Made by a program: the position numbers and the translations under genes. Under the pieces are notes generated by a model. It was not told the DNA's origin and made no database searches. It saw only the letters and a list, made by a program, of their open reading frames with translations. From assembly GCA_010094025.1 (NCBI GenBank), contig ML991810.1, positions 62,001-126,000 on the forward strand: 64,000 bases of DNA, in the 5' to 3' direction. Each line of letters begins with the position of its first letter. Position 1 is the first letter of the stretch. This stretch comes from Viridothelium virens (Eukaryota > Ascomycota > Dothideomycetes > Trypetheliales > Trypetheliaceae). Shown here one piece after another: positions 3 through 38,607 of this stretch.

Positions 3-3000
3 AGGAAGACATCTGAGCCATCAACGCCTACCGATAAACTTGAGCCTCGGACAATTCAGCCAGAAACTGAACCGGAGAATTTGCCTGCGGAACCTCTTGT
101 AGTTGAAGAGACATTCAACGCCCAAGAACCTGTTCAAGAGCCTGTTGAAACGTTCGCTACGTCTGAAGCTCCTTTGCCGACCGCAGAACCTCAAGTCAAC
201 TCCAGCAAAGATGTCCATCCCGATGAATTCTCCTTTGCTCCCCTGAAGAAGACCAAGAAAGGCAAGAAAGGCAGAAAATCATCCGAACCAAGCACTCCAG
301 GTAACGAGTCTGAAGTCATGGAAACCACACTTGATGAGGGAGACGCGCTCGCTCCAGAATTAAAGGAGTTTGCCACTGAGAACAATGGCTGGTCGGAAGC
401 TATCGCTGACACTGCTACCCTATCAACAGCAGGAGCCGGAGAAGTCGCTCCAGGTGCTAAGGAAACTGAGGCCGAGGATGAGTGGAGCGCTTCATTCTCC
501 ACCAAGAAGTCCAAGAAGGGCAAGAAAGGCAAACGTGCTTCACTTGCTTCTACACCTCCGCCAGAGCCTGATAATGGACCACGAGACACTTTCAAAGCTG
601 AAGACGAGACAGACGCACCCGCCGAGGCGCTTCAGGATAGATCCCAAGCCAAGATCGAAGCGAGAGAGCCCGAAGCTACCGTTGAGGCTCCAGAACAATT
701 TACTGAGGAACCCGCACAGACGCCAAAAGAAGCAGAACCTGAAGAAGACTGGTCTTCGTTCTCGACGAAGAAAGGCAAGAAGGGTAAAAAGGGCAAGAAG
801 TCTTTACCATCTACTCCGTCGACCGGGTCGGCTGAGCAGCAGACTGCGTCCAGCTTCAGTGACGAAAAAAATTACCCAGCTCAAGACTTAATCGAGCCAG
901 TGGGAGATCCAGAGCCGCGCTCTAATGCCAATGGCCAGAGTCAGACGAGAGAGGCTGAGCAAGATGATTTCCCTGAATTTGCAACAGCGAAGAAGGGCAA
1001 GAAAGGTAAAAATGGTAAACGAGCTTCTGGGTCACAAACTTCAGCGGTTGAGGCAGAGTCTACTTTCCAGGGGGAAAACATCTCTGCAGAACCAACTGAA
1101 GCCACGCATTCCCAACAATATGAATTGGGAGAGGCGACTTTGCCCCCGGCCGAGCCCTTTACTACTCTTGAGGAAGCCAGAGATCTAGAACGAGCGCCAG
1201 AAGAGACCGGCGCAGATGACTTTGCTTTCACTGTGCCCATGAAAGGAAAGAAAGCAAAGAAGTCTAAGAAGGACTCTCTTCCATCGGCGCCAGTCGAGCC
1301 TGAACTAGAGCCAGTTTCACATCGTGAAGAGAGCTCAAGCCTTCCTATAGAAGATACGAGGGAACAAGAGTTTATTCCATACGAGACCACGACCGAGCCA
1401 GCCTCCATGATATGGAATGACGTTTGGGACGATACGGAACTTCTCTCTCAAGAACGACCCGATGCACCGCAAATCGTTGAAGAAAAGGTCGGGGGAGCTG
1501 ACCCAAATCCCAGCAAGAAAGGAAAAAAGGGTAAGGGTTCGTCACAGATTTCAACTCTTACTGAAGAGGAGGGGCCAGCTCCCAGACAGTTTGAGCTCAA
1601 CGGAGGACCAGCTACTGGTATGGAACCAGACACTCAATCCGAACAGCAAATGGAAAGCGTGTCTGATTTTGGTTGGGACACCAAGAGCAGGAAGGAAAAG
1701 AAGAAGAATAAGAAGAAAGGGAAGACTACCTCTTTCAATGAGCCGGAAGAGAATGTAGAAATTTCTGCACCGGCTTCCAGCTATGATAGACCTGTCGAAC
1801 CGAATGCACATGATGAACGGGATTTTGAGCAGCCAACTGAGCAAACGGTTGAACAGCCTCTTGATCAGTCCATTGCGCAGCCAAGCGAGACACCAATCGA
1901 GCAGTCTCAAGCCCCTTCCGCGGAGGGCAGATCTTCAGGTCGCAGTTGGGATGAGGTTATTCAAGAAGATACACCGGTTGACTTGGCTCAGTCAGACAAC
2001 GCTCTGAATGCTTTAGGGCCTTCGAATCAACAACCAACGATTGATAGTCATGATCTTGAGACAATGCCCCAAGAACAACAATCCTTTAGCACGTCTGTTC
2101 AGGAGGAACCAACGCCACAAGCCATCAACGTGCGTGATATGCCTGCTGAGTCTAGGGGCTTTGCTCTGGACAATCTTGTCGGAGAATCGGAATCTTCGTC
2201 TTTCACAGAAACTCCGGCTAAGAAACCCAAGAAGGGCAAGAAGAAGGGCAAGATGAGTCTGTCAAAGCTGGCTATCAAATATCCTTCCGCGTCTGCCGAG
2301 GAGCTTGAGGCTATGCTACGTCAACACAACGAAGAAGAACCTTCTACGCAATCTGCTCACGAGGCACCTGTTACTGAGCCCGAGGCTTCTCGCGACGTTG
2401 TTGGACCCGCGGCATTGGAGCAAGAGACTGCAGATGTCTCTACTACAGGTCAACCCGATATAGAATCTGTCCAAACCGCCGAGGCTTCTAATGTCGATGA
2501 GTTTGCCCTTCCCTCTTCGAAGAAGTCAAAGAAACAGAAGAAAAGAGAGAAGGAAGCACGTAAAGCCTCTCTACCATTCGGAGAATCTGTGTCAGCGGAA
2601 GTATCCTCCCCTGCTGTAGACGAGCAAATGCCAAGTTTCTTCGAGTCAAGGCCTGCAGATGATGACACTTCCCACAACGCCGCGGATGAGCAGGAAGGCT
2701 CCAGAGATGCGTCTACCGCAAGGCCTTCTACAGCTGACGAGTCAAGTGGCGAGGTTGCTCGATCTCTTCAAGACCATGGTATTCAAGTCATCTCGGATGA
2801 GCATCAAAAAACGGTTAACAACGATGGTCAAGATGTTGAGCGAACTCATAGCCCTCACGACGTAGACTTCGCCGCAACGGTCGCGGCAGCTCTTCAAGAT
2901 TCTGGTTTCGATCCCAACCTTGCAGTCAATGACCCTTCATTCCATCAGCGTGCATCACCTCCAAATGCAGGCCCTGAGGCCGATCCTGCAGAAGTGGCAC

Positions 3001-6000
3001 CGCCCGCAAACAGGCGAAGAAAAGACAGACAGCGTAGCACCTCACCGCCTCAGGAAGCCTGGAATAATCTCCCAGTGTCTGCACAAGGGGGGGTTTCCCA
3101 GGCTTCTCAAGAACAAACTTTTGACGGTGCTATCGCAGCTGGACTGTCTGGTGCAGGTTTTGACGCGTCGATTACTCAAGCAGATCTAGGTGCTCCTCCA
3201 GAGCCAGAACAAGATTTCTTCCCTTTCAAGACTGGCAAGAAGAAGGGCAAGAAAGGGAAGAAGAGTGGTTCTGCAACACCTCGGGATGGCCCTGACCCTG
3301 AAGTCCCATCCGAGTCCCTAGACACAGCTGAAGATCCTTTGAAGAATCCAACTGAGGAACTGGGAGATAATCCTGTCACGGCAGCCTCACCTGCGCCAGA
3401 GAACCTGCAGCAGGGAGAGGTAGAGGACTACTTGACCTACCAACCCAAAAAGAGCAAGAAGAGCAAGAAGAGATCGAGTACTCAAACATCAGAAATTTCA
3501 TATCTCGAAGGCCAAGTACAACAATCAGGAGAGATCACGCCTTCTAAAAACCTTGACTCCTTCACCGATCCACCAACTATAGTGTCCTCAGAAGTCAATC
3601 AGGCAGAACAAGAAATCCCTATCCAAGAGGATGATCCATCATCTCGCTACGATGGGCACGACTACAATTACGATCTCCCTGCAGACCCAATAGAGTCATC
3701 TCCATCGAGGCGACCTAAAGAGACGGAAGAAGATGCCCTGGCACTACTGGCAAACGAACTCGAGCGCAGACGCAAAGAATCCTTGGCTGAGGCTACACAA
3801 CCCAAACTTGAGGACAGACAGAAGTCTTCCCTTGACGTTGAAGAGCATCCATCGGTACCTACACCCGCACAGCCCGAAGATGAATGGGACGCGCCTACCA
3901 AGAAGGGGAAAAGAGGAAAGAAAGCCAAGAAATCGAAAGGCGAAGGAGATGCTGGCGACGAGGATTCTGACAAGACACCTAACGTCGAGGTGGCTAGCCT
4001 TGTTGTAGGGACAGCTGCCACTGCCGCCGCCGTCATAGGTTCCCCTCATGAGACCCGAGAGCAGATCTCGAACGAAGACGAATGGGCAGTCCCTACCAAA
4101 TCAAAGAAGGGCAAAAAAGGCAAGAAGTCCAAAAATCTTCCTGAGACTCAGCTCGCAATACCTGATGTCGAGCACGAGCCACCAACCAACCGCGACATCT
4201 CCACTGAACAAAGCCAACAGCAGATCCCTAGTTCATCGAACGTCGAACCAGCCATGTCCCGTCAAGATATTCGAAATCAAGAAGATGAGCTCTCTGATGC
4301 GCTCGAGCGCGCACAACATGGGAATACGAACGGTCAGTATGCATCCTCCGCGCCTGCGGGAATCGACCCAGTCTTCAACGAAAACGAGCGCGAATTTCAT
4401 GAAGCCAAATATGAAGCTAGTGATGATCTCTCGCGCGTTCAAACAGCCCCCTCGCAGCCTGAGAGGTGGGAAGACATAACACCACCGCCCGAGGCAGTAA
4501 TGGGGCATCGACAGTCTGAGCCTGAGCCGTCAAAACGTATGCTTGAGGGATCTGAATACTCCACGGAAAGAGAAGCAAGTGCAGCCACAGAAGACGAGCT
4601 GCCTACAACCTCAAAGAGAGACAAAAGATCGAGAAGGCGCCCAGAGCTGGAGCCAATCAAGACGGACACGGATGCTATTCTATACCAACGAGCAATGCAT
4701 CGCGAGGCTGAAGTTGATGACTATGATGAAGGGCCTACCTTTGTCGATGACCACGGCCCTCCCCCTCACATTTGGGTTGAACCGGCATCAGAGGATCGCC
4801 CACAGCTTCTCCCTCGTACCACGAATGGCAGTGAAGAGATGGGTGCGCTGATGATAGCGCCCCCACACACGGAGGATGTGGCGATCGAACAATCAATCAA
4901 ACATTCTGCTTCGGAAGAACAACTAGACTCGCCCATACCCAAGCAGCAATTGAAGGAAATGGCTGAGGATGAAGGAGAGTTTACAAAGGTGAAGAAAGCG
5001 AAGAAAAAGAAGGGAAAGAGGTCCGAGCCTACAACACCAGCGAATGAGCCCAGAAACGCAATAATGGGTGAAGCACATCTGGATGAGCAAGCATCGACTA
5101 CAGTGTCAGCGTCAATGGATGTTGAAGCGCCCAACGAGGAAGAGACACCCGCGGTCCCAGCTACAGCTCAACCGGAGGACGAATGGGCCGTACCGACCAA
5201 AAAGAGCAAGAAAGGCAAGAAAGGCAAGAAGGACAAGAGGGTCTCTGAGCCTGCGACACCTCCAAATGAGCCAGTAGAAGATGTTTCAATGGGTCAATCA
5301 GCAAATGCAGGGCAGTCCGTGTCACGGGATGTTGAAACTTCATTGAACAACGAAGTCCGTCGAGACGAAGCTGTAGCTGAGCCCGAAGAAGATTGGTCAG
5401 TTCCGTCGAAGAAAGGGAAGAAAGGCAAGAAAGAGACCAAAGGGAAGAAGCGGTCAGAGCCGCCTACACCTGCGCATGCACCGGAAGACGTTCGAAGCGA
5501 GAAAGTCCTCAAAGACGAGAGAGGTCTCGACAGGGAAGATTCTGAAACATTGCCCGCCACTTGGTCAAAAGAAACCAAACTACAGAGTCCAGAAACGACT
5601 AGTCCAACGAGTCAAAGCCGAGTTACCAACGTCTTCCCTCATCTTCAACGAGTCAAACGCAGGACACCTTCCATGGACGCAGCAGAACCAAATCGTGATT
5701 TACACGCATCTCGGGGAAACGATGAGGGCCAGTCAAACAAAGGTGCTACGGCACCAGTAGCGACATGGGGCTTTCCAAATCGTGACAGCGGATTCGGAAC
5801 GGATTCGCCCATCATATATCAAGAGCCAGAAAGCGACCACAATGCAACAAGAGACAGCGGCTATCATGATACCCCTGCAGACTCGAGATACAGTCGGCAG
5901 TCCACGGGTGGGCAGACTGACGTTACGGAAATAGAAGACGAGCCATCGCATGAAGCTAATCATCAGTCGAGAATGGACAAAGACATCGCGCACAGCGGCC

Positions 6001-8996
6001 ACCGCTTGGATGAGCAAACCCACGAACGTAGACTATCTCCTGTGCATACTGGCACAAGTACTAGTTCCGGCGATCCTCTGAGGGTCTCGGTTGAAATTGA
6101 TCCAGACTGGGATCTATCAATTTCAAAACAACGAGCTTCAGTTGCCACATCAGCCGATGCCTCGGAGATTAGCCCAGTTCATCAATCTACGAGGGAAGCT
6201 CCCGATCTACAAAGGCAAGACGAGAATGCTGGATTTACTCCGCCGTCTCCAGTTGATTCAACCACCAAACAACGAACCTCGTATTTATTTAACACACCAC
6301 CAAGTATCGGCATGAAGGGTTCGAAGGAATCTACTCCCCGAAGCCGGGATGCGACCAACGAAGCTATCCGAGAGAGAGAGTCGCCGTCCGTAGATGCCAA
6401 AGACAGAAAGAGAAGTCGTGATGGAGATAAGAGACAACGTGCCGGAGCAGAAGGCATAGCCGGTGCCGCTGTAGCCACTGGAGTCACCGCCGCCATAGGT
6501 CAATCCTTATTCGGGGACGGTGATTCTACCCGCTATGACCAGTCTTCTACCTTTGATACGCCAGCAGCTCGCGCTCGATCCGGCAGTCATCTCGAGCCAA
6601 TTGAGGAACAAAGTCCGGAGGACTCGCACCTGAACAAACGAGCTATGTCAGACACTGGATCTCCCGACCGAGAGACAAAATCAGCACGACGCACCAAGAC
6701 GCCACAGCAAGAATTTCGAGAACGGTGGAATTCACCCACTCGCAACTCTCGAGACAGCCGAAAGCGAAGCGACGTAAGACAGCTCAACGTAGATGCATCG
6801 CAAGGGGAACAGCGTTCAACCACACCACTCTCGAGCGATAGCTTCATCGATCGTCTTTCGTGGCCTCCAGTTGATGAGGAGAAAGAGACGGTTGGTATTG
6901 ATCGTGTTCTCAGTGGTGACCCTTCAAAGTCAAAGCAAGGAGGAATTGACGATGTTTCTCCCAAGAGTCATGCTTCGATCGGTAGCATCAATCGGATCAA
7001 ATCACCTACCGAGCGAGTTCGGTCACCTGGCACATTCAGCAATGCGTCGTGGCACTCAGACACGACTCCACCGCTGCGAAGATCAAGCCGGCAGCTCTCT
7101 GGAGATTTGCGAGCAAGGAGTAAGCTCGACCGAGACAAGGAAAGTCTGCGGGCTTCGGCGGAACTTGGGTCCGAGCGTTCGGTCGCATCTCCAAACATCA
7201 ACACTAACATCAACGTCGACCCGCCCTTCATCGGTCCATCCGACTATGATCGCGTTCGACACAAGGGGAAGGCCCGAGCTGGCGACATGAGCGATGTATA
7301 TGTAAGTTATTTCTCTTAAAACTTTCTCTTCGATGTCCTTAATGCTAATGCGCTGAAATCGCAGGAGGGTACCGGAGCGCATCCGGGCTCGCCCATGTCG
7401 CCGACACGACCACCGAGCGTTCGCAAACGTCAGTCCATGCAGATCATCGACCTAGAACAGCGACTAGATCAATTGATATCAGAGAATCGCATTCTACAGG
7501 ATGCAAAGGCAAAAGCAGAAGAGACAACTCGTGAATACAACTACCGTCGCGATGTCAATGACAACGCTATCGCTGAGGAGGTGCAGAAGAAGGATCTCGA
7601 AACGAGGAAGAAAGATGCAGAGATACAATCGATGAGAGAGTTGTTGTCCAGTGCAGAAGCTGAGGTGGCGAGGCTATCTGAGGTGAATGATACGCTCGCG
7701 CGTGACCAATCTGCAGGTCCGGAGTTTGAACAGCAGCATCGCGCGCTGCAAGATGAACATGCAAATGTACACCAGCAGTGGCAACAAGACAGACAAGAAC
7801 TCGACAATCTCCGCAACCAGCACGCCTACCTCAACACCAACATGGAGGGAATCATGCGCAAAGAAATCACTCGCGGCCTCGAAGACAAGGAAGCCGAGAT
7901 CCGCCGTCTCCACGAAGAGCTCCAGCTCGCCACCCAACAAATCCGCACGCTGCAGCAACAAATTCTCGACACCAAAGCCAGCTCTGCCGACTGGCTCACG
8001 GTGCACGACGAAGACTACTTCGACACCGCCTGCCAAGACCTCTGCAGCCACGTACAGTCCTGGATCAAGCGATTCAGCAAGTGGTCCGACCGGCAGCCCT
8101 GCCTCCCTTCATCCTCGCTCAACGACGAGAAGCTCGAAGCCCGCCTCGACAACGCGGTGCTCGACGGCTCCGACGTCGACGCGCTCCTCGCCGAGCGCAC
8201 GGGCCGGCGCGACGTCTTCATGAGCGTCGTCATGACCATGGTGTGGGAGTACGTCTTCACGCGCTACCTCTTCGGCATGGACCGCGAGCAGCGACAGAAG
8301 CTGAAGACGCTCGAGAAGATCCTCGGCGACGTCGGGCCCGGTCGCGCCGTCGCCCAGTGGCGCGCCACCACGCTTACCCTCCTCTCCCAGCGCCCGCAGT
8401 TTGCGCAGCAGCGCCAGCAGGATACCCAGGCGGTTACGGCAACCATCTTCGACAGCCTTGCGCTGTTGCTGCCGCCGCCCTCGGAGCGCGAGCCGGAGCT
8501 CAGGGAGAGTCTGCTGAAGGTTGTGAGTCTGGCCGTCGATATCGCGATTGCGATGCGCTGCCAGCGTGCGGAGTATATCATGCTGCCGCCGCTGCAGCCG
8601 GAGTACGATGAGAATGGCGAGTTGACGCGGAAGGTCACGTTCAATGCGTCGCTCATGAATGATCGGTCGTATGAGGCGCCGTCGCGGGTGTCGAGCGGTG
8701 GGCAGACGCCGCCGCCGCCGCAACGAGGGGAGAGCAATGCGGAGCTTGAGGCGCGGAGGGCGGTGGTCAAGATCGTGCTGTTCCCGCTCGTGGTGAAGAA
8801 GGGGGATGATGAGGGGGAAGGCGAGGATGAGATTGTGATCTGTCCTGCGCAGGTGCTGGTGGTGAAGCCGAGGGAGAAGGGGAAGCGGGTGGTGAGGATG
8901 CAGAGTGGTGCGATGGATATTGATGATGCGAGGAGTGAGCGGACGAGAGGGAGTGGAGCGTATAGTCAGGTGGAGGGGGAGGGAGGGATGATTTGA
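3..8996 (+). CDS. lah: Involucrin-repeat / Leashin-like giant protein, 5' truncated by window edge
   Basis: The frame is open from base 3 with no start, so the window holds only the C-terminal part: about 2,400 residues of exon 1, then a 63-nt intron (7302-7364, gtaagt...gcag, phase 0), then an exon ending at 8996. The first part is acidic and disordered, with about 16 units of an acidic-aromatic box followed by a lysine/glycine block (for example EDEWAVPTKKSKKGKKGKK), often followed by SEPxTP. The second exon opens with a predicted coiled coil (about 7430-7980), then a more globular, conserved-looking C-terminus. Large fungal proteins annotated 'involucrin repeat protein' correspond in Aspergillus to Leashin (LAH), which tethers Woronin bodies to the septal pore; the C-terminal part is the septum-associated one. 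That assignment is from repeat style, size and coiled coil, not an alignment, so it is moderate. Base composition rises to high GC in 7,900-8,900. Confidence 0.85.
220..5460 (+). repeat. Degenerate Lys/Gly protein repeat of the Leashin-like gene
   Basis: About 16 dispersed units, irregularly spaced by roughly 60-230 residues, consist of an acidic-aromatic box (DEF, EDEW, EEDW, DDF), a short neutral spacer, then KKxKKGKKGK or a variant. Late units at about 3870, 4075, 5175 and 5385 are the most alike (EDEWxxPTKK); early and middle units are divergent. The DNA is not a tight tandem repeat; the similarity is mainly at protein level. Confidence 0.8.
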
Positions 8997-25718: not shown

Positions 25719-27829
25719 TCACTCGTCCGCACGGCGTTTGCCTTTTCCTTTCCCCGGAGTGCTAGATGGGCCCGCGACGACTGGTTGCTGGGAGGGAGAT
25801 CTCATCGCCTGTTCAGCACGGCGCTGTTGCGCCGACTCCTGGGCTCTCTCGATCGCTGCAGGACGGTTTGCCGGATCAGTCTTGTGGACGGCAAGCTGCG
25901 CGTTCAGGTTACGTTCGAAACTCAGCCAATCCTGGAGCTCGCACTGGGCGGATTCAAGTCGCTTCTGCATGGGCATGCCAGGTTGATCCTCTGTTCCCTT
26001 CTTGGGGAACTCGCCGAGAACTGCCAGGACGCTGGGGTCGTTCGGTGCCTTGATCTCCTGGTCTATCGATGCTTTCACGCGCTCGCTGATGGCCTTAGTC
26101 TCGGTCCAGCACTGGTTGAGCCTTTTTCGGTGGCCTTCCTCCCCTTCAGCATGAGTGTTTGCTTCCTCACGACGTCGATGCTCCTCCCGCACTTGTTTGG
26201 CTTGCCGAGCGAAATTTTCACGCGCTTGCCGCGTCTGCCTCGCTTGTCGGTCGAAGCGCTCGTGTTCCTCTTTCGCCTCGCGCTCGACCTGCCGGCGCTG
26301 CTGCTCGACCTGCTGGCGCTGCTGCTCGACCTGCTGGTGCCGCTGCTCGATCTGCTGGTGCCGCTGCTCGATCTGCTGGTGCCGCTGCTCAACCTGCTGG
26401 TGCCGCTGCTCGAGCTGTCGGCGCTGCTGCTCGATCTGGTGGCGCTGCTGCCCGATCTGTTGACGCTGCTGCTCCAGTTGCTCACGTTGCCGCCGGAATT
26501 GCTCCTCCCGTTGGGCATGCTGTTGCTGCTCGTCAGCTGCTCGGCGAGCCCAACGATCCTGTTCCGTCTGCAGGCGGTGCTCTTCGCTGGTAGCGCGTTC
26601 AAGGTTTGTCCGCGTATTTTCATGCTGCGCTGTCCAGTGTTGCTGCTCTTTTTGTGAGCGAGCTTGTTGATGCGCCAAATAAGCGTGGCTTGAGGCCATT
26701 TGGGCTTGCAATTTCGGCAGCCATTCTTGACGAGCTTGCCCTTGCTGCTGCCCTTCCGGTTGCCGACGAGGCTCCTGCGCTGGTAGAATCCCGCCCGCCG
26801 TCGCAGGTCGCGAGGGCTGACCGCCGCTAGAACCTGGTGGCGACGGTCGCTGACCCATCCGTTGAGTTTGCGAAGATGTGGTGGCTTGTGCAAGCTGCTG
26901 CTGCCAACTGGATTCTGCTTGAGGGTTGCTGCCAGCGGATGCCTGCATATGGAGCGACGCTCTTACTCCTCCAGTAGTGGTTGGAGCACCATCTTGCCCA
27001 TACTGCGGTTCTTGGGCGATCTTAGCCAATCCGCCTGGCTCGTCTTCCGACCCGAAGAATGAATCACCTGAGCAAAATTAGAAATCGCGCTCCATGCGTG
27101 GTATTGCGTAAGCCAAAAAGTACGGAATATTGGCTACGCACCGTACGCTCGCCCAACACCACGTCTCCGAAACCAGAGCTCCTCAACGAATGGCTCAATA
27201 ACGCTTTGTCTCTGTTCTGAGTTTGTACGAAAACTAGTTCGTGCCTCAGCATATGATGACTTCTGAGCAATGGCCTCAGCCGTATCAAAATCTTTCACAA
27301 GATTTCGGACTTTACTCTCGACCTCATCATGATTCATTCGATTGTCCAGCTCTTGCCACTGTTTGGGAAACTCCTCTACTGGCATCGTATTCCGCACATT
27401 TTTCGGTGTCTCCCATAGCCGGCGCGCACGATACCAGATTTCAACGTCTGTTTTGAGACCTGACTTGTAGTCGCCGCGTAGCTGTGTCACCACCGTCTGA
27501 GCTGCTGACCGTCTTCCTACCTTATCCGACGTAGCTCCTTTCCGGGAGATCATGGCGAGACAGACTTGTCGCCGTAGTGCGTAATTCGTTCTGAAGCTAT
27601 CACGCAATGCGCCTAAGAGAGTATTGCGGTTCTTCGCGTCCTCAAGACTTGCCAATACAGTTTCAACAATGTAGGCATGCTGTTTTTCAAGATCCTGTGC
27701 CCAAAGATTGAACTTGGGGTCCCTTCCTGCGTCTATTCTTCGCAACCCATTAAAAACATTAGGGAGCGCCCCAACGGGGTCCTCCAGATTGTACTCTTGA
27801 AGATTGTGGATTAAATCTTTTCGACTCAT
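25719..27829 (-). CDS. Hypothetical glutamine-rich coiled-coil protein
   Basis: Two exons (27829-27142 and 27067-25719; intron 74 nt, gtgcgt...gctcag, phase 1) give 678 residues. The first about 230 residues (MSRKDLIHNLQEYNLEDPVG...) are a mixed, globular-looking domain I do not recognise. Then a Gln/Pro/Ser-rich linker leads to a long charged coiled coil with heptads QRHQQIE, coded by a 21-nt minisatellite (26283-26471). An Arg/Glu-rich helix follows, and the tail ends GKGKGKRRADE, a possible nuclear signal. The ATG at 27829 is chosen because no further ATG occurs on this strand for more than 200 nt upstream. An acceptor-like site (actaagact...ttgcag) just ahead suggests a 5'-UTR intron. No known function. 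Confidence 0.65.
26283..26471 (-). repeat. 21-nt coding minisatellite encoding heptads
   Basis: Nine back-to-back 21-nt units, on the plus strand of the type CTCGATCTGCTGGTGCCGCTG, starting at 26283, 26304, 26325 and so on. Units 3-6 are nearly identical. Read on the minus strand each encodes one coiled-coil heptad (QRHQQIE or a variant). Because 21 nt preserves both frame and heptad phase, unit gain or loss would lengthen or shorten the rod without disrupting it. Confidence 0.85.
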
Positions 27830-28604
27830 GCCTCTGAACGCTTTGCTGCTCTGCAATAAGTTCAAAGTCTTAGTCGGCCGTATTCTAATGACACTGTTCT
27901 CGGTCTCAGACGCCGTTCAAAAAGAGGACTTAGATGAATCAACAAACTCACGGAAATGGGCTCTTTTATCTCTTACACACAGCCAGCTGCTAGAGTTGGA
28001 GAAAGAATCAACAAGTGGAGCTAATGTTGTGATGTTATGATGAATCTGGTTGCAAAAGGGAACAATCAAATGTCTGCAGAATTGAAGACTTGAAGAGCGA
28101 AATTCGTCGTGTTCTTATATCTACACTATGGAATCATCCATCACTTTCTCCCACCAACCCGTCACTCCAACATTCGAATCGATTTCACAGTCATCGGCCC
28201 AGTCAATGCTTCAATCACCGAAGCACTCAGCACGGAAGACTCCAAAGTGCCGTCTGTGAATGTCAGTCAGCAATGTCTTTACAAGAAGCACTGACGAATC
28301 GATTTGACTCACCTCAGCAATGAAGCAGCACACAACAGGACCGACCTGTTTGACCAGCCGGATTGAAGTTTCAGGCGGCAGGCATCATCGCATTCAATCC
28401 TCCGATCACATCAGATCAGACGTCGCGCCCCTATCGTGATTAGCAATCAACTCGTTGAGAAAGCAGAAGTGCAGGTCTACGCACCGTTCGAACCTCCCAT
28501 CCGCGCCGTGAGATTACCCTTCTTAAGTCAGACAGGGAGCTCAAAACCGACGGCTTTTGTGTGTAGGATCCCAGCCTCTAAGGCGTATGACGGCACACCC
28601 TCCA
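27830..28604. other. Upstream region of the Q-rich gene
   Basis: No gene seen. It contains the likely 5'-UTR acceptor (near 27851) and leads directly into the tandem array. Confidence 0.45.
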
Positions 28605-29077
28605 GGACCGTTTACTGACAACATGTCCAGGTTGCGGACGCAATTTTAACGACATGACCAGGTCGAGCAGCAGTTTGGATCGACGGTGCCCTGGTCGTGC
28701 TGGTAGTTTAACGACTTACCGCGGGCGGTCGGGATGCAGCTTTAACGACTGAAATGCCCACGGTCGGGAAGAGTTTGGATCGACATCCCTGGTCGTGCTG
28801 GTAGTTTATGCGACTTACCGCGGGCGGTCGGGATGCAGTTTAACGACAGAAATGCCCACGGTCGGTCCGCAATTTAAACGACGTGCCCAATGGTCGGAAC
28901 TCAAGTTTAACGACATGGTCGAGGTCGGTACGCAGTTTAAACGACGTGCCCATAGTCGGATCTCACTTTAACGACATGGTCGAGGTCGGAGTGCAAGTTA
29001 ACGACGTGCTCATAGTCGGGAAGCACTTTGGCTCGACATGCCCTGGTCGCGATGAGTTTAATCGACGTCCCAGGTCG
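28605..29077. repeat. 15-unit tandem array with CGAC...GTCG arms and a three-unit higher-order repeat
   Basis: Fifteen head-to-tail degenerate units of 28-35 nt (mean about 31.5). The consensus is GGATGCAGTTTAACGAC, then an 8-14 nt variable core such as ATGCCCAT, then GGTCG. Each unit has a CGAC...GTCG inverted pair, able to form a short stem or to serve as a two-half-site element. Units starting at 28666, 28698 and 28732 recur as a block at 28767, 28796 and 28831, a higher-order repeat of about 100 nt. The most 5' unit (28605-28635) is decayed (TTTACTGACAACATGTCCAGG). Unit lengths vary by non-multiples of three and no frame runs through, so it is not a protein repeat. It matches no transposon end or telomere repeat I know, and it lies 0.8-1.2 kb upstream of the Q-rich gene. 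Confidence 0.85.
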
Positions 29078-32000
29078 AAGCGAGATAATGCAACAACAAC
29101 ATCAACAACAGCAACCAGTCCTTCAAGGAAAATGTCAATCATGATGAAGCATGAGGAATATAGAACATTGGAAGGCCAGATAAATCAGCGACCGAGTTTT
29201 GAGGGTCAAGTGCGACTCATTTGGGTTTTGTCAAAAGAAAGCAAGGGAGGCCAGCAATCTTGTACGAGGGAATCCAATTGCCAAAGAAAGTGAAGAGGAA
29301 GAGACAACATGGTGGGTGGGGATGTGTGCTGTGTATGTGATCGGGGGGGAAGGTATGAGCATGATCGGTGTGAACACCCAAGCGAGCCCAGACAATCACA
29401 CGACCCCACTATTTGCTACTTACAAGATTTTGAAAAAACGACTGAAGAGAGGCAAATGACGTAAGAAAACTCTGAAACAGGAACAGCAAGGAAATAGAAA
29501 ATTCGAACAACTACACAAGTGGAGTCGCGTCGGTAGTCGAGGCTACTGCCGCTATCAAGTATAGGCTGAGTTAATCCCGAGCATGCGCGAAGGGAGGAGT
29601 GGCTTACCTTTGGTGCAATAGGCAGACTGACAGAGAAGGCAAAGCTCTAATGAGCCATGAAGGTGGTCGGTGGCTTCATGAACAGAAGCAGTGAAGCTGT
29701 CAACAGTAAGAGCTTGGGATAGCCGGTGGAAGTCGGCATTGTGCGTGGGGAATTCTAAGAGAAGAGAAGGAAGAAGGAAGAAGAAGAAGTGAAGTGAAGA
29801 ATGGGCAGTGGCCGCGCTTTTACCCTCGAGAATCGCGCTAGGCACTAGCTTAATTATGTAAGTCAAAAGTGGTCATTAGCGAGTGTGTGAGAGGAATATA
29901 GAGTTCAGTCTCTGCAGGTGGGATGACGCGTTGGGGTGAGGAGAAGGGGACAGTGCTATTAGCTGAGTCTCGGCCGTATATGTCGTTGTCTATGGTATAT
30001 TGGATTCTCTTGAGTTTAGCGCTAATCGTGGCTAGGAGTCTAACGACAGACCTTCATGGGATCTGACCGACGCGAGCAAGAGAGGAGCACCACACTGATG
30101 CCTTTGCATCAGTACTCTTTGGCTATGAAAGGTGGATTTTCCGGCCTGTAACGCAACGGTAGGTTTCAGAGGCTTGTGGAACTACACGAAGCACGTGGCT
30201 CGGGATTGGTAAGAACGGTATTGTGACCGATCATTCCATAAATTTTCAAACTATAGAGTTGTGGACTATTGAGTTGCTGAGGTCTCCATCATGACTCTTG
30301 GTTTTGAGATGATCGGAATTCTATTGGCTGGCTGTTGCGAATGCAAAGGCGTGTACCTCGATGTTGCCCTGAAAACGCGATGCTAAGCAGTCTAGACATC
30401 CACTGCTTCTATATCGTCTAAGTCCGCCTTGGAAACAATGTATTATTATTTGCAACATTGCAAGTACGAAGTCCTTGGGAGCGAAACCTTCACTTTGATG
30501 ACTTCCTGTCTAGAGTGTGTGATCGTGACTTTGCCGACTATTTCTCGTCGGGCTTAGGGCGTCATGATCCGAGAGTGACTGCAGTATGGTAAAGCAACCT
30601 GGGCAGACTTTCTGATATCATGAACTGTAGCGCTGGGACGATAAGTAATTTAGCGAATGCAGAGTCCTCCAATGAGTATTTCTAGAGGGTTCAAGTGCAA
30701 TTCGTTACAACATTCGGTACTAGTGCCATAATGCTTACCATCAGTTGATCAGAAATAGCAGAAAGAACATCGGCAACGCGTTGTAACAATGGAAAGTCTT
30801 GGTATTGTAGAGGATATTCTGAGCAAGTTGGGCGCTGCTTCAGGTAGAAGAATCAATGATACTAAGTTATCTCGGAAAGGTGCATATATATTTGTCTGTG
30901 TATAGAGTAAATACAGCTCAGCTTGATATATGTAGCTGGAGTAGAATGTGCTTTCCTTATCCATGGTAGCTCTTCCACTTGCCCATCTGGCAAGCGCCTT
31001 TTCCATTGACCATGCCTGCTTACTGGTAGATCTTATATTCTATCCGAACACTATACAATGTGGGATCCTTTCGGCACAATATTGAGCTTTGTACTCAGTA
31101 TGCCTCGACAACAATTTTTATTGGTATTGCATCCACTGGCGTTGAGAAGCGAGCGAATGACGTAATATTTGATTATTGGTCCGATAGATACGGCACATGA
31201 TCAGAGTAAAGGACCAGCGCTTTCCTACGCACGAAAGAACACCCGAGGCTTCCCTGTTCAGAAGAGATTACAGAATTCCTGCGCCTGTCTGTGACTGATT
31301 ACACTCGGTTTCTATGATCTGATGATGGATATCTGAACAAAGGATCTGGCACGGCTCGCGGCCATGCGTCGATCATGACTGAATGTGGTTGGAATGTTTT
31401 CTGTCGTCAAGACTCCAGAAATGCGGCAAAGCTTCCTCTTAGAAGACTAGGAATGTCCACAGCAAGGGTATGCGGACTGGACAGGAAGCCAACACAACGG
31501 ATCGGTTGAGCTGATTTCTTGAGCCGCGTCACTCAGTACCTGCAGGCAACTTTGCTGTACATATACATCTCTAGACCGACATTATCATGAATTAGCGTTG
31601 CTAAATTAAGGCTCAACACCAAGATCCTCATGCGGCATAGCAAGTCAGCAAAGTTGACTTGTTCTTTACATAAGCTAGTATTTGGATGGACGTTGATTGG
31701 GTCCCGGTGGTGCAGGGGGCTGGCTAGTTCCCGCTGCATTGCCAACGCATCAAGCATGCCCTTGGGAGTGGGCTGTCGCGCGTCATTTTTCTCTCGTCTT
31801 CTTTTTCTCTTCTGGCTTCTTTCAATTGCAAGACAATCGAGACTCAGAGTGGACTTCGCACTGCTGGTCGTCCTTTTGTGAGTGTAGTCGTGGCCGAATG
31901 CTTCTCAGCTCTGAGTCTTTTCGTTTCTTGATCGACGTGAATCTCAAATCCCTGTAAAACATCACCGGAAGCAGTCATTTACGCAAGAGACGTCAGGCAC

Positions 32001-33477: not shown

Positions 33478-34704
33478 GGTGCCGAGACGAGAATTCAATA
33501 AAGTTGGCAATGACAGGATCAAGTGTGGAGGGGCGAGTGAAGATAGTCCCTTGGTTCTGTGAGCCGATGGACCAGTCGTAGGCACGAGGCACAGAAAAGA
33601 TTAAGGGCCCACTTTAGCGTCCGGGCAGAACCTCACCGCGCCGAGGTTGGCTATTGACGCGACGTCGAGTGAGAGAGAGTATCGGAGAGAGAGACACACG
33701 CACGCACACACACACACGCACACGCACACAACAAAACGCAAACCGCTCGGCTGCGAGGGACGCGCTGTGTGAACTGGGCTCTGGAAAGGCGGGGCGGTCC
33801 GGCTTAGCGCCCCTTGAATGGGAAGCGGAGGTTACCCCGAGGAGTTGTAGTGGCCGGGCTCTGGCAAGCCTCCGAGGTGGGATCGAGCAGAAGGAGATAG
33901 TTACCGGCGCGGCGGATGGAAAAGAAAGAATTGGGGATGAAGACTTGGGGTGGCCGGTGGGGAACCAGGCCAGGCCAGCGAAGGTGCCACTGGTGGGGGA
34001 GGGAACACACCGACCCCACAAAGTTTCAAACAAATTTCGAGGCGTTCCGTTTGTCCCACAGACTACAGTACTGTAGCTTCACTTCAGAGTACCTCAGGTA
34101 GGGAGGAGGCACGGTCACCGGCAGCAGATAAAATTCAGTCTACGGAGAATAGAAGGCAAAAGTCGTCTGAAGTCGCTTGACCTCTTGTCTCCTCATGCAC
34201 GTATGCAGTGCTAGCCGCCGGTGCGGGATCTTCCATGCGTGCAGGTCGCAGCGGCGGCTTCATTGATTGCTTCTGCTGCCCCCCTCTGCGCTCGCAGATT
34301 TGGGGGTAAAAAGGGCAAGATGCACTAGAGGCTCTAAGAGAGAGCAGCCGACCAAGTTGCAGCGTCGGGGCATGGGTGTGGCAGCAGATGATGGAGGTTT
34401 GCAGGTTCGCTATCGGCCAGCCCCGCACTAGCTGGGCCCCGGACGAAATGTCGTCCATCCGATCTGATACCGATACGGCATCTTGATTTTTTTTCCCTCC
34501 CGCTGCCACCACCGCGATCCCATCACCCATCGTGCCCCATCTCGATTTACCACTGCAGCTAGGGAAGTGCCTAAGCCTGGACGACCCCTGAATAGCTTCT
34601 GATGGCCCACCTGACACCTCCATAATCGCCATCCTGGCCCTTCGAGCTCCCTCCCGGGTCCATTCTACTATTTTCCCCCCACCCCTCCTCCCACCACCAC
34701 GGTC
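33478..34704. other. Divergent promoter region of ARL8 and RPA2
   Basis: 1.2 kb between two divergent housekeeping genes. It carries a GA/CA microsatellite and a pyrimidine-rich stretch just ahead of the RPA2 start (34,630-34,700). Open frames here are low-complexity and not convincing. Confidence 0.5.
33670..33731. repeat. (GA)n/(CA)n microsatellite
   Basis: An interrupted GAGAGA tract passes into ACACACGCACGCACACACAC-type dinucleotide repeats. Simple sequence in the ARL8/RPA2 promoter region. Confidence 0.85.
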
Positions 34705-37700
34705 ATGGCACCCGCTCGAGTACCACCCACCGATACCAAATGGGATAACAGCTTCCATACCCATCGCCGACACAAACTTTTCAAAGCCCCTCCTCGCGAT
34801 CACACTGCGTATCCATCCCTCACTGCCGCCGTAGAACCCCACATCAAATCCTTCAACGCCATTCTCGACAAAGGTGGACTCCTGGATCTTGGCTTGCAAG
34901 ACATTGGCACCAAAGAGTTCCTCGATGGCGACAATACAACAGTTGAAGATGCTGGAGATGACGTGGAAGACCCCACCATGACCTCAAACGCACCATCGAC
35001 GAGACGGCTTCCCCGCAATAAACTCTCGCTCAGAATCAAAGAGGTCTTCATAGAAAGACCAAAGCTGCCAGTGACAAACAAACATACGACGCAGAGAGAT
35101 ATTACCCCCGCAGAGGCAAGGGAGAGGTATTGTAGCTACAAGGGAAAGTTAAGAGCCAGGGTTGAATGGAGGATCAACAGTGGCGACTGGACGAGTGTGG
35201 TGAGGGAAATGGGACAGGTCCCGATTATGTTATGCGTAAGTCACACCATCCGTTCTTCAGACGATCTGGGATGGGCCCTGAAGTTAGGATTGTGCACCTT
35301 ACAAATTTTGTACCCCAGTCACAGTTGCATAGCTAGAGACGCTTGAATATTTCTCCATGTCGATATGTCCTTCTGCTTATGCTGATCTTCATTCAAGAGC
35401 AAAAGGTGCTATTTGGAGAACCTCGCACCTGAGCAACTTATCCAGTACAAAGAAGAAAGCGATGAGCGAGGTGGCTACTTTATTGTCAATGGCAATGAAA
35501 AACTCATTCGCATGTTGATCGTGCAACGGAGAAATTATCCCATGGCCATCATTCGACCATCATTCGGAAATCGAGGCGCTGCCTATACGAAGTACGGTAT
35601 ATCGATCCGCTGCGCTCGTCCAGATCAGACCTCTCAGACAAATTACCTTCACTACATCGCCGATGGTAACATTACGTTTCGCTTCAGCTGGAGAAAAAAT
35701 GAATATATGGTTCCAGTTGTCATGATCATGAAAGCCTTGGTGAACACAAATGATCGAGAGATTTTCGAAGGAATTGTTGGGCCGGCCGGTGACAAAGGAC
35801 TGAAGGATAAGCAATTCGTGACAGAACGTGTGGAGCTGTTGCTAAGGACATACAAGGCCTTCAACATGCACAGTAGATCAAAAACAAGAGCTTATCTGGG
35901 GTTGAGATTCAGACCAGTCCTTGGGATGGCAGATGATCGGACTAACGAAGAAGTCGGAACCTACTTTCTGCGAAAAATTGTGCTACCTCACTTAGGATGG
36001 CTCAATGTCACAGAAGCGCAGGATGCTGACAAATTCCGTCTACTTCTCTTCATGTCAAGGAAACTGTACGCTCTTGTGGAAGGAGAATGTGCGGCTGACA
36101 ACCCTGATACCGTGCAAAACCAAGAAATCTTACTTGGTGGATTTCTCTACGGCATGATCCTCAAGGAGAAATTAGAAGAATACCTTGATGGAGTCAGAAG
36201 ACCCGCATCCGTATGGCGATTACAAAATCCAGGAGAGACATATGCCGGGCAAAAGTTCCGAAAAGACTTTGTGGCCAAAATCCTGGGCGGAAGCAATGAA
36301 AATATCGGTTCGTCAGTGGAGAATTTCTTGTCGACTGGCAATATCACCAGTACCAGCGGACTGGACTTACAGCAAGCTTCCGGATATACAGTTGTTGCTG
36401 AGAAGATTAATTTCTATCGCTTCATCAGTCATTTCCGAACGGTGCATCGAGGGAGTTTCTTCGCAGAATTAAAGACGACAACAGTACGGAAACTACTGCC
36501 AGAGAGTTGGGGTTTCTTATGCCCTGTACATACACCCGACGGTAGTCCTTGTGGGCTTCTCAATCATCTTGCACACAAATGCAAAATAGCCACCAAAAAT
36601 GTGGATGCCTCGGCTGTCCCTAACCTGGTTACGCAACTAGGTGTCTCACCTCGTGCCAAAGCCCTTCTTGATGAAAGTGTGGCCGTCATATTAGATGGCC
36701 GCATCCTCGGCTACTGCACTCCCGGACAGGCCAAAGTCATCGCCGATACGCTCAGGCATTGGAAAGTGGCAGGCCAACATGGTGTGCCTCCCCAGCTCGA
36801 AATAGGCTACATCCCAAATTCAAACGGTGGTCAATACCCTGGCGTGTATATGGCCTCGACATCTGCCCGAATGTATCGGCCCGTCAAATACCTCCCTCTC
36901 GACCGTGAAGACTTCGTCGGCCCCTTCGAACAACCTTACTTGTCTATTGCTGTCCGCTACGAAGAAGTCGTGCCGAACTCCACCACGCACGTAGAATTCG
37001 ACCCTACCAACATCCTCTCCATCGTCGCGAACATGACGCCCTTCTCCGATTTCAATCAATCCCCACGAAATATGTACCAATGTCAAATGGGCAAGCAAAC
37101 CATGAGCACCTTCGGCACCGCCATCCGCTACCGCACCGACAACAAAGCCTACCGCCTCCAAACCGTACAAACCCCAATCGTGCGGCCCCCACTCCACAAC
37201 GTCTACGGCCTCGACAACTTCCCACAGGGCACCAACTGCGTCGTCGCCGTCATCTCCTACACGGGCTACGACATGGACGACGCCATGATCATCAACAAGT
37301 CGGCGCACGAGCGCGGCTTCGCCTACGGCTGCATCTACAAGACGAAGAAGGTGGAGATCGGCGAGGAGGGCCTGCGCGGCGCGCGCATCACCAAGCTCTT
37401 CGGCTTCGCGCCCGGCGACCACGTCAAGACCGACGCCCAGGAGTACCTCGATGCTGACGGCATCGCGCGCGTGGGCGTCAAGGTCCAGGAGGGCGCGTTA
37501 CTCGCCGCGTACCATACAGTGCAGCGCACGGGGACGGGCGGGTGGGAGAATAAGGACGGGCGCACGCAGTTTGTCAAGTATAAGGACAGCGAGATGGGGT
37601 ATGTCGAGGAGGTGCGCGTGCTGGGCGCCGACACTGGCAACGAGCCGTGCCAGACCTTGCTGATTAAGTTTCGCATTCCGCGGAGTCCGGTCATTGGCGA

Positions 37701-38607
37701 TAAGTTCTCGAGTCGGCATGGGCAGAAGGGGGTGTGCTCGGTTAAGAATCCCTCGGTGGATATGCCGTTTAGCGAGAGCGGGATGCAGCCGGATGTCATC
37801 ATCAATCCGCATGCGTTTCCCTCGCGTATGACGATTGGCATGTTTATCGAGAGTATGGCGGGGAAGAGTGGGGCGCTGCACGGGTTTCCACAGGATGGTA
37901 CGCCCTGGCAGTTTGATGAGGATGAGTGCACTGCAGTGGATTACTTTGGACAGCAGTTGAAGAAGGCCGGGTATAATTACTATGGGAATGAGCCGATGTA
38001 TTCGGGTATCACGGGCGAGGAGCTCGCGGCGGACATCTACATCGGGGTCGTGTATTATCAACGATTGCGACATATGGTGAACGATAAGTACCAAGTCCGG
38101 ACGACGGGGCCGGTGGATAGGATCACGGGACAGCCAGTGAAGGGGCGGAAGAGGGGAGGTGGCATACGTATTGGGGAGATGGAGAGAGATGCGTTGCTGG
38201 CCCACGGTACTGCCTTCATTCTGCAGGACCGACTCCTGAATTGCAGTGATTATGTTCGCGCAGCAATTTGTCGGCAGTGTGGATCGTTCCTTGCTGTGGG
38301 AAGTTCCGTGGATAATTATGCGCGGAGAAGAGAAGCCACCGGGGAGATGAGATGTAGACGGTGTGCGAAGAAGTTGGAGGCGCCTGGACAGGGAGAGAAG
38401 AAGATGACGAATGGAAACGAAGTATCGAAGGCGAATACTATGGAAGATTTGGAGCTCGATGGCAATGATGTCTGGGAAGATGGCTTGAAGAAGCAGTTCC
38501 AGGGCGGAGATGACGTTGCAATCGTGGCCGTTCCAGGCGTGTTGAGGTATCTGGACGTTGAGCTGGCTGCCATGGGTGTGCGGATGAGGTTCAAAGTTGA
38601 GCCTTGA
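34705..38607 (+). CDS. RPA2: DNA-directed RNA polymerase I second-largest subunit (RPA135 type)
   Basis: Two exons (34705-35235 and 35398-38607, intron 162 nt, phase 0) give 1,246 residues; yeast Rpa135 is about 1,200. This subunit forms half of the Pol I active-site cleft and transcribes 35S rDNA in the nucleolus. The N-terminus has the Pol I-type WDNSFHTHRR. Splicing yields QVPIMLCSKRCYLENLAPEQL. Then come the lobe and fork regions (GGYFIVNGNEKLIRMLIVQR; LPESWGFLCPVHTPDGSPCG), the hybrid-binding YTGYDMDDAMIINKSAHERG and GDKFSSRHGQKGVCS, and finally a C-terminal zinc site (CRQCGSF...CRRCAKK). The isoform is assigned to Pol I rather than II or III from the N-terminal sequence and overall style. 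An acidic spacer lies before the final strand. Confidence 0.95.

Follow-up and report, generated by a model that had tools for sequence, protein, structure and literature searches.

Homotypic clusters of transcription-factor binding sites are, as a general kind, a short motif repeated with variable linkers, and minisatellites can have cores that are linked to recombination. Tandem repeats in promoter regions that affect expression form a further described class, and are a topic of PMC3516485. Here we analyse a tandem array at positions 28610-29077 of a 64-kb stretch of fungal DNA (the window). The array is a real object of an ordinary kind, and we consider it probable that it is a single-locus, non-coding and near-neutral minisatellite in a fungus close to Trypethelium. 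A minisatellite was among the readings offered in the original prediction and is supported by the present analysis.

Unit structure and block growth of the array

The array was recovered by Tandem Repeats Finder as four overlapping rows, with periods of 98 (28672-28865), 61 (28860-29019), 31 (28826-29009) and 30 (28861-29019). Unit cutting and direct reading confirm a tandem array of 15 units, 14 of them clear and one degenerate. Within 28561-29100, 14 CGAC and 16 GTCG tetramers were read directly, two of the latter being surplus copies within units 9 and 11. The array had been described as carrying both arms in every unit; this applies to 14 of the 15, but the degenerate first unit (GTTTACTGAC..GGTTG, plus strand, 28610..28642 by unit cutting, with its start at 28610/28611) has TGAC and GTTG. 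The proposed mean period of 31.5 nt is close to that observed, with the 13 CGAC-to-CGAC intervals ranging from 29 to 35 nt (mean 31.8, sd 1.9). As predicted, these lengths show mixed residues modulo three, which excludes a protein repeat. The coding signal is also weak, and for a 149-codon ORF overlapping part of the array none of 81 candidates is a homologue at E 1.

The units are arranged head to tail on the plus strand as several imperfect copies, each within the range of roughly 10-100 bp, and have multiplied as copied units or blocks, as in a minisatellite. Following unit 1 (28643..28673, by unit cutting), the order is ABC-ABC, with a block length of 98-100 bp, then DE-DE-D, with a block length of 60-63 bp. 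The first ABC block (units 2-4, 28674..28773) is repeated by units 5-7 (28774..28871), the successive units being 88, 89 and 77% identical to their counterparts. The first DE block (units 8-9, 28872..28934) is repeated by units 10-11 (28935..28994) at 84 and 84% identity, and the additional D-like unit 12 (28995..29026) is an extra copy of unit 10, to which it is 74% identical. The array ends with an A-like unit 13 (29027..29055; 81% identical to unit 5) and the final unit 14, taken to the end of its GTCG (29056..29077). The block copies are also visible as the Tandem Repeats Finder periods of 98 and 61. Much of the regularity of the array is therefore recent copying, and the apparent conservation of the 15 units does not represent 15 independent samples.

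The gap between the arms, put at 5-14 nt in the original prediction, is corrected to 7-13 nt. Measured start to start, CGAC is followed by GTCG at 11-17 nt (variance 4.25), and GTCG by the next CGAC at 17-19 nt (variance 0.62). Since the GTCG-to-CGAC spacing is the steadier of the two, the natural module is GGTCGG..TTTAACGAC with a variable linker, as opposed to CGAC..GTCG. This suggests that the array unit is better framed as a bipartite GGTCGG..TTTAACGAC module, of which a zero-mismatch consensus example lies at 28826..28847 (plus strand). At up to 3 mismatches the module occurs 3 times in the window, in each case within the array, where 0.01 would be expected.

Genomic setting and copy number

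The window is part of a 296,048-base contig, in an assembly of 30,719,852 bases and 175 contigs. A coding model trained on 51 ORFs gives a weak and broken coding signal over an interval of approximately 6.7 kb (27.9-34.6 kb), inside which the array is located. The interval is flanked on one side by a minus-strand ORF (27137-27916) and on the other by the gene for the RNA polymerase I second subunit, RPA2 (35386-38604). RPA2 is 95% identical to a protein of Trypethelium subeluteriae, 83% to one from Bathelium mastoideum and 81% to one from Bogoriella megaspora, which places the host close to Trypethelium; Trypethelium, Bathelium and Bogoriella are lichen-forming Dothideomycetes. The flanking minus-strand ORF spans 260 codons from stop to stop and has a weak coding signal; 465 candidates share words with it, and none of them is a homologue at E 0.001. 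Between 27850 and 34600 there are 83 ORF fragments of at least 45 codons; none of the 10 that were scanned reached a Pfam cut-off, with two matches below it. The ORF start closest to the array is approximately 700 bp away, and the ORF itself is doubtful.

Several other repeats and frames were observed in the window. Tandem Repeats Finder reports an AC-rich short microsatellite at 33694-33740, upstream of RPA2. A minus-strand, glutamine-rich ORF (25722-27077) has coding signal and no Pfam match, and contains an in-frame 21-bp tandem repeat of 9.2 copies at 26282-26474. At 3-7316, a stop-to-stop frame of 2438 codons remains open to the window edge; it lies within sequence that is skewed to purines and has many short AAG-rich repeats.

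The genome-wide search that had been proposed finds the array sequence once in the 30.7-Mb assembly. Simple repeats and very common words are passed over by the DNA search, and the genome counts given here are minimum values. In the CGAC..GTCG order, the arm pattern has 7 matches (6 of them within the array) compared with 5 for the reversed control, and the exact module with a variable gap has 4 (all within the array) compared with 3. Allowing up to 3 mismatches gives 9 matches to the module, including 3 within the array, versus 17 for the reversed-pattern control. Dispersed single modules are thus not above the reversed-pattern control in the assembly. For a homotypic cluster, single sites elsewhere would be supporting evidence more than a trait that strictly defines the kind.

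We also scanned 264 kb with Tandem Repeats Finder (score of at least 100, period of at least 9). Besides the window, this set contains 20 stretches of 10 kb each, of which 13 come from the window's contig and 7 were chosen near pattern matches; it is a non-random sample of less than 1% of the genome. It yielded 14 rows, 3 of which are this array; the periods of the remaining 11 are all multiples of three, as expected of protein repeats. One of these stretches (C24:330001-340000) has, at 7038-8185, a group of long tandem repeats whose periods are 90, 96, 108 and 186 bp; this cluster probably encodes a repeat protein, its opposite strand appearing ankyrin-like by eye.

A phage or prokaryote origin was rejected: phage DNA gave two matches, 25 and 20 bases long (E 6), and a tandem signature that matches once in the array itself has no exact match in the searched contigs of prokaryote genomes and viruses. 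In the passages of PMC6515281 that carry it, the 9-nt arm occurs in printed MYC gene sequences, outside any motif described there. The literature text search for the 9-nt arm and its complement does not establish the motif as undescribed, the word used for the array in the original prediction.

Tests of constraint on the CGAC and GTCG cores

The original prediction had suggested that the arms are constrained while the intervening sequence varies. The outcome is mixed: the cores are spared by all 14 recent differences between block copies, but the wider arms are not clearly spared, and one simulation framing is compatible with neutrality. Neutral units were simulated and aligned in the same manner as the real ones, and simulations were counted only at similar identity. 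In the CGAC..GTCG phase, 7 or 8 of the 15 units were used, one per block class, with units 5, 6, 7, 10, 11, 12 and 13 dropped as block copies; in this alignment GTCG is off by one column in unit 2. Without the degenerate unit, the observed count of invariant columns is reached by 39 of 393 simulations (summed over four settings), the longest invariant run by 6 and the conservation variance by 18, for a 7-unit set that lacks unit 0, the one with altered arms. With the degenerate unit included, the corresponding values are 80/397 (invariant columns), 142/397 (longest run) and 74/397 (variance), and column conservation is within neutral expectation.

In the module-phase framing, which retains the degenerate module, none of 174 simulations reaches the observed variance in column conservation, whereas 7 reach the column count and 18 the longest run. 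This test used 10 of the 14 modules (5, 6, 10 and 11 being dropped as block copies), some of which have a neighbour class in common, and columns were counted at up to one departure as opposed to strict invariance. The module-phase simulations fell mostly below the observed identity, with 174 of 1040 lying within 0.04 of it. Another simulation was uncalibrated (simulated identity of 0.31-0.50, compared with 0.51 observed) and was discarded.

Comparison of the block copies reveals 14 differences over 159 columns. None of the 14 falls in the 44 columns of the CGAC/GTCG cores (P 0.011), core columns being defined from the same units that were tested. The wider arms contain 3 of the 14 in 66 columns (P 0.10), not clearly below the rest, with the TTTGGATCGAC arm not marked as a wider arm. 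The comparison excludes the end of units 4/7, where correspondence between the copies is lost, and counts gap columns singly. Taken as a whole, the signal that CGAC and GTCG are retained is modest, and depends on the framing and on few independent units.

Weighing the readings of the array

The minisatellite reading is supported by the block copies, the mixed residues modulo three, the weak coding signal and the single copy in the genome, together with the lack of dispersed modules above control, RNA fold, covariation and helical phasing. It is further supported by the CGAC..GTCG-phase simulations with the degenerate unit, where conservation is as expected under neutrality, and by the wider arms, in which recent differences are not clearly fewer than elsewhere. 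Under this reading, the blocks would have arisen through replication slippage or unequal exchange within a long stretch on which selection is weak, and CGAC and GTCG would be mainly inherited from a founding unit and spread through block copying. Some retention of the cores above the neutral level is possible. Neutrality is opposed by the module-phase variance, the untouched cores, the steadier GTCG-to-CGAC spacing and, in the CGAC..GTCG phase without the degenerate unit, the longest run (6/393) and variance (18/393). A neutral array would serve at best as a candidate strain marker.

The main and serious rival is a homotypic binding-site cluster, which we regard as a possible but less likely explanation. 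A putative protein would bind the bipartite 22-24-nt GGTCGG-N-TTTAACGAC module while the 7-13-nt linkers vary freely, and the tandem copies would raise local occupancy, as in an operator, silencer or insulator. Such a cluster is consistent with the location in a non-coding interval, with spacing that is steadier within modules than between them, with a module-phase conservation contrast exceeding all 174 simulations, and with cores spared by the 14 recent differences. Against it, the module is found at fewer places in the genome than its reversed control (9, including 3 within the array, versus 17), and the CGAC..GTCG framing with the degenerate unit shows no constraint. Helical phasing, too, is absent: the period had been likened to three helical turns, and phase coherence (0.42, 0.16 and 0.20 at 10.4, 10.5 and 10.6 bp per turn) is no better than for random spacings, which match it in 14, 78 and 69% of 5000 trials. 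The inverted arms noted in the original prediction are indeed reverse complements, but random 6- and 9-nt blocks have a reverse-complement 4-mer in common in 5.7% of 100,000 trials, so that a chance level of about 6% of block pairs makes them weak evidence of dyad recognition.

A more specific form of this rival, which appears unlikely, is a locus-specific natural operator array of approximately 15 candidate bipartite sites, each consisting of GGTCGG with the CGAC of TTTAACGAC 17-19 nt on. A fungal DNA-binding protein would act solely here, the array would have expanded by block copying, and the contact cores would be under selection. If the cores are selected, the array would represent a natural repeat operator confined to one locus, in a fungal group whose regulatory genetics is sparse.

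Alternatively, the copying process itself might keep the cores, with microhomology or recombination-prone motifs favouring duplication and no cellular function needed. Block copying is evident and the retained stretches are just 4-6 nt; to judge from the sequence, however, block boundaries do not regularly coincide with the cores, and we consider this explanation improbable.

The proposed structured non-coding RNA, in which each unit would form a small hairpin, fares worse and is very improbable. CGAC can pair with GTCG in all 14 clear units, but fold energies are ordinary: z-scores are -1.12 and -0.31 for the two RNA strands and -0.83 for DNA, with 17, 40 and 19 of 100 shuffles, respectively, folding at least as well. 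There is also no covariation. The stem consists of four pairs that are invariant in 14/14 clear units, and covariation is therefore uninformative for these; beyond them, the outer neighbours pair in 1 and the inner neighbours in 2 of the 14. The window contains no Rfam match at gathering score, and at E up to 1 a single match, located outside the array and under its cut-off.

A MITE-like transposon part was rejected: six short inverted pairs were noted, the best flank-to-flank inverted alignment was equalled by 138 of 200 shuffles, and the genome holds one copy. A scan for bacterial-type promoters and terminators has little value for fungal DNA, and no weight was placed on it.

Compared with known systems, the array resembles eukaryotic minisatellites with variant repeats and higher-order blocks in its imperfect units of approximately 30 bp, its single locus and its block-wise copying. 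It is unlike the typical eukaryotic minisatellite in that its two short cores may be kept above the rest. The array is like homotypic binding-site clusters in repeating a short motif with variable linkers, and unlike them in that the genome is without dispersed single sites above control and the motif is without a known protein. It is similar to the promoter-region repeats affecting expression (a topic of PMC3516485) in lying in intergenic non-coding DNA, whereas the nearest ORF start is some 700 bp away and belongs to a doubtful ORF.
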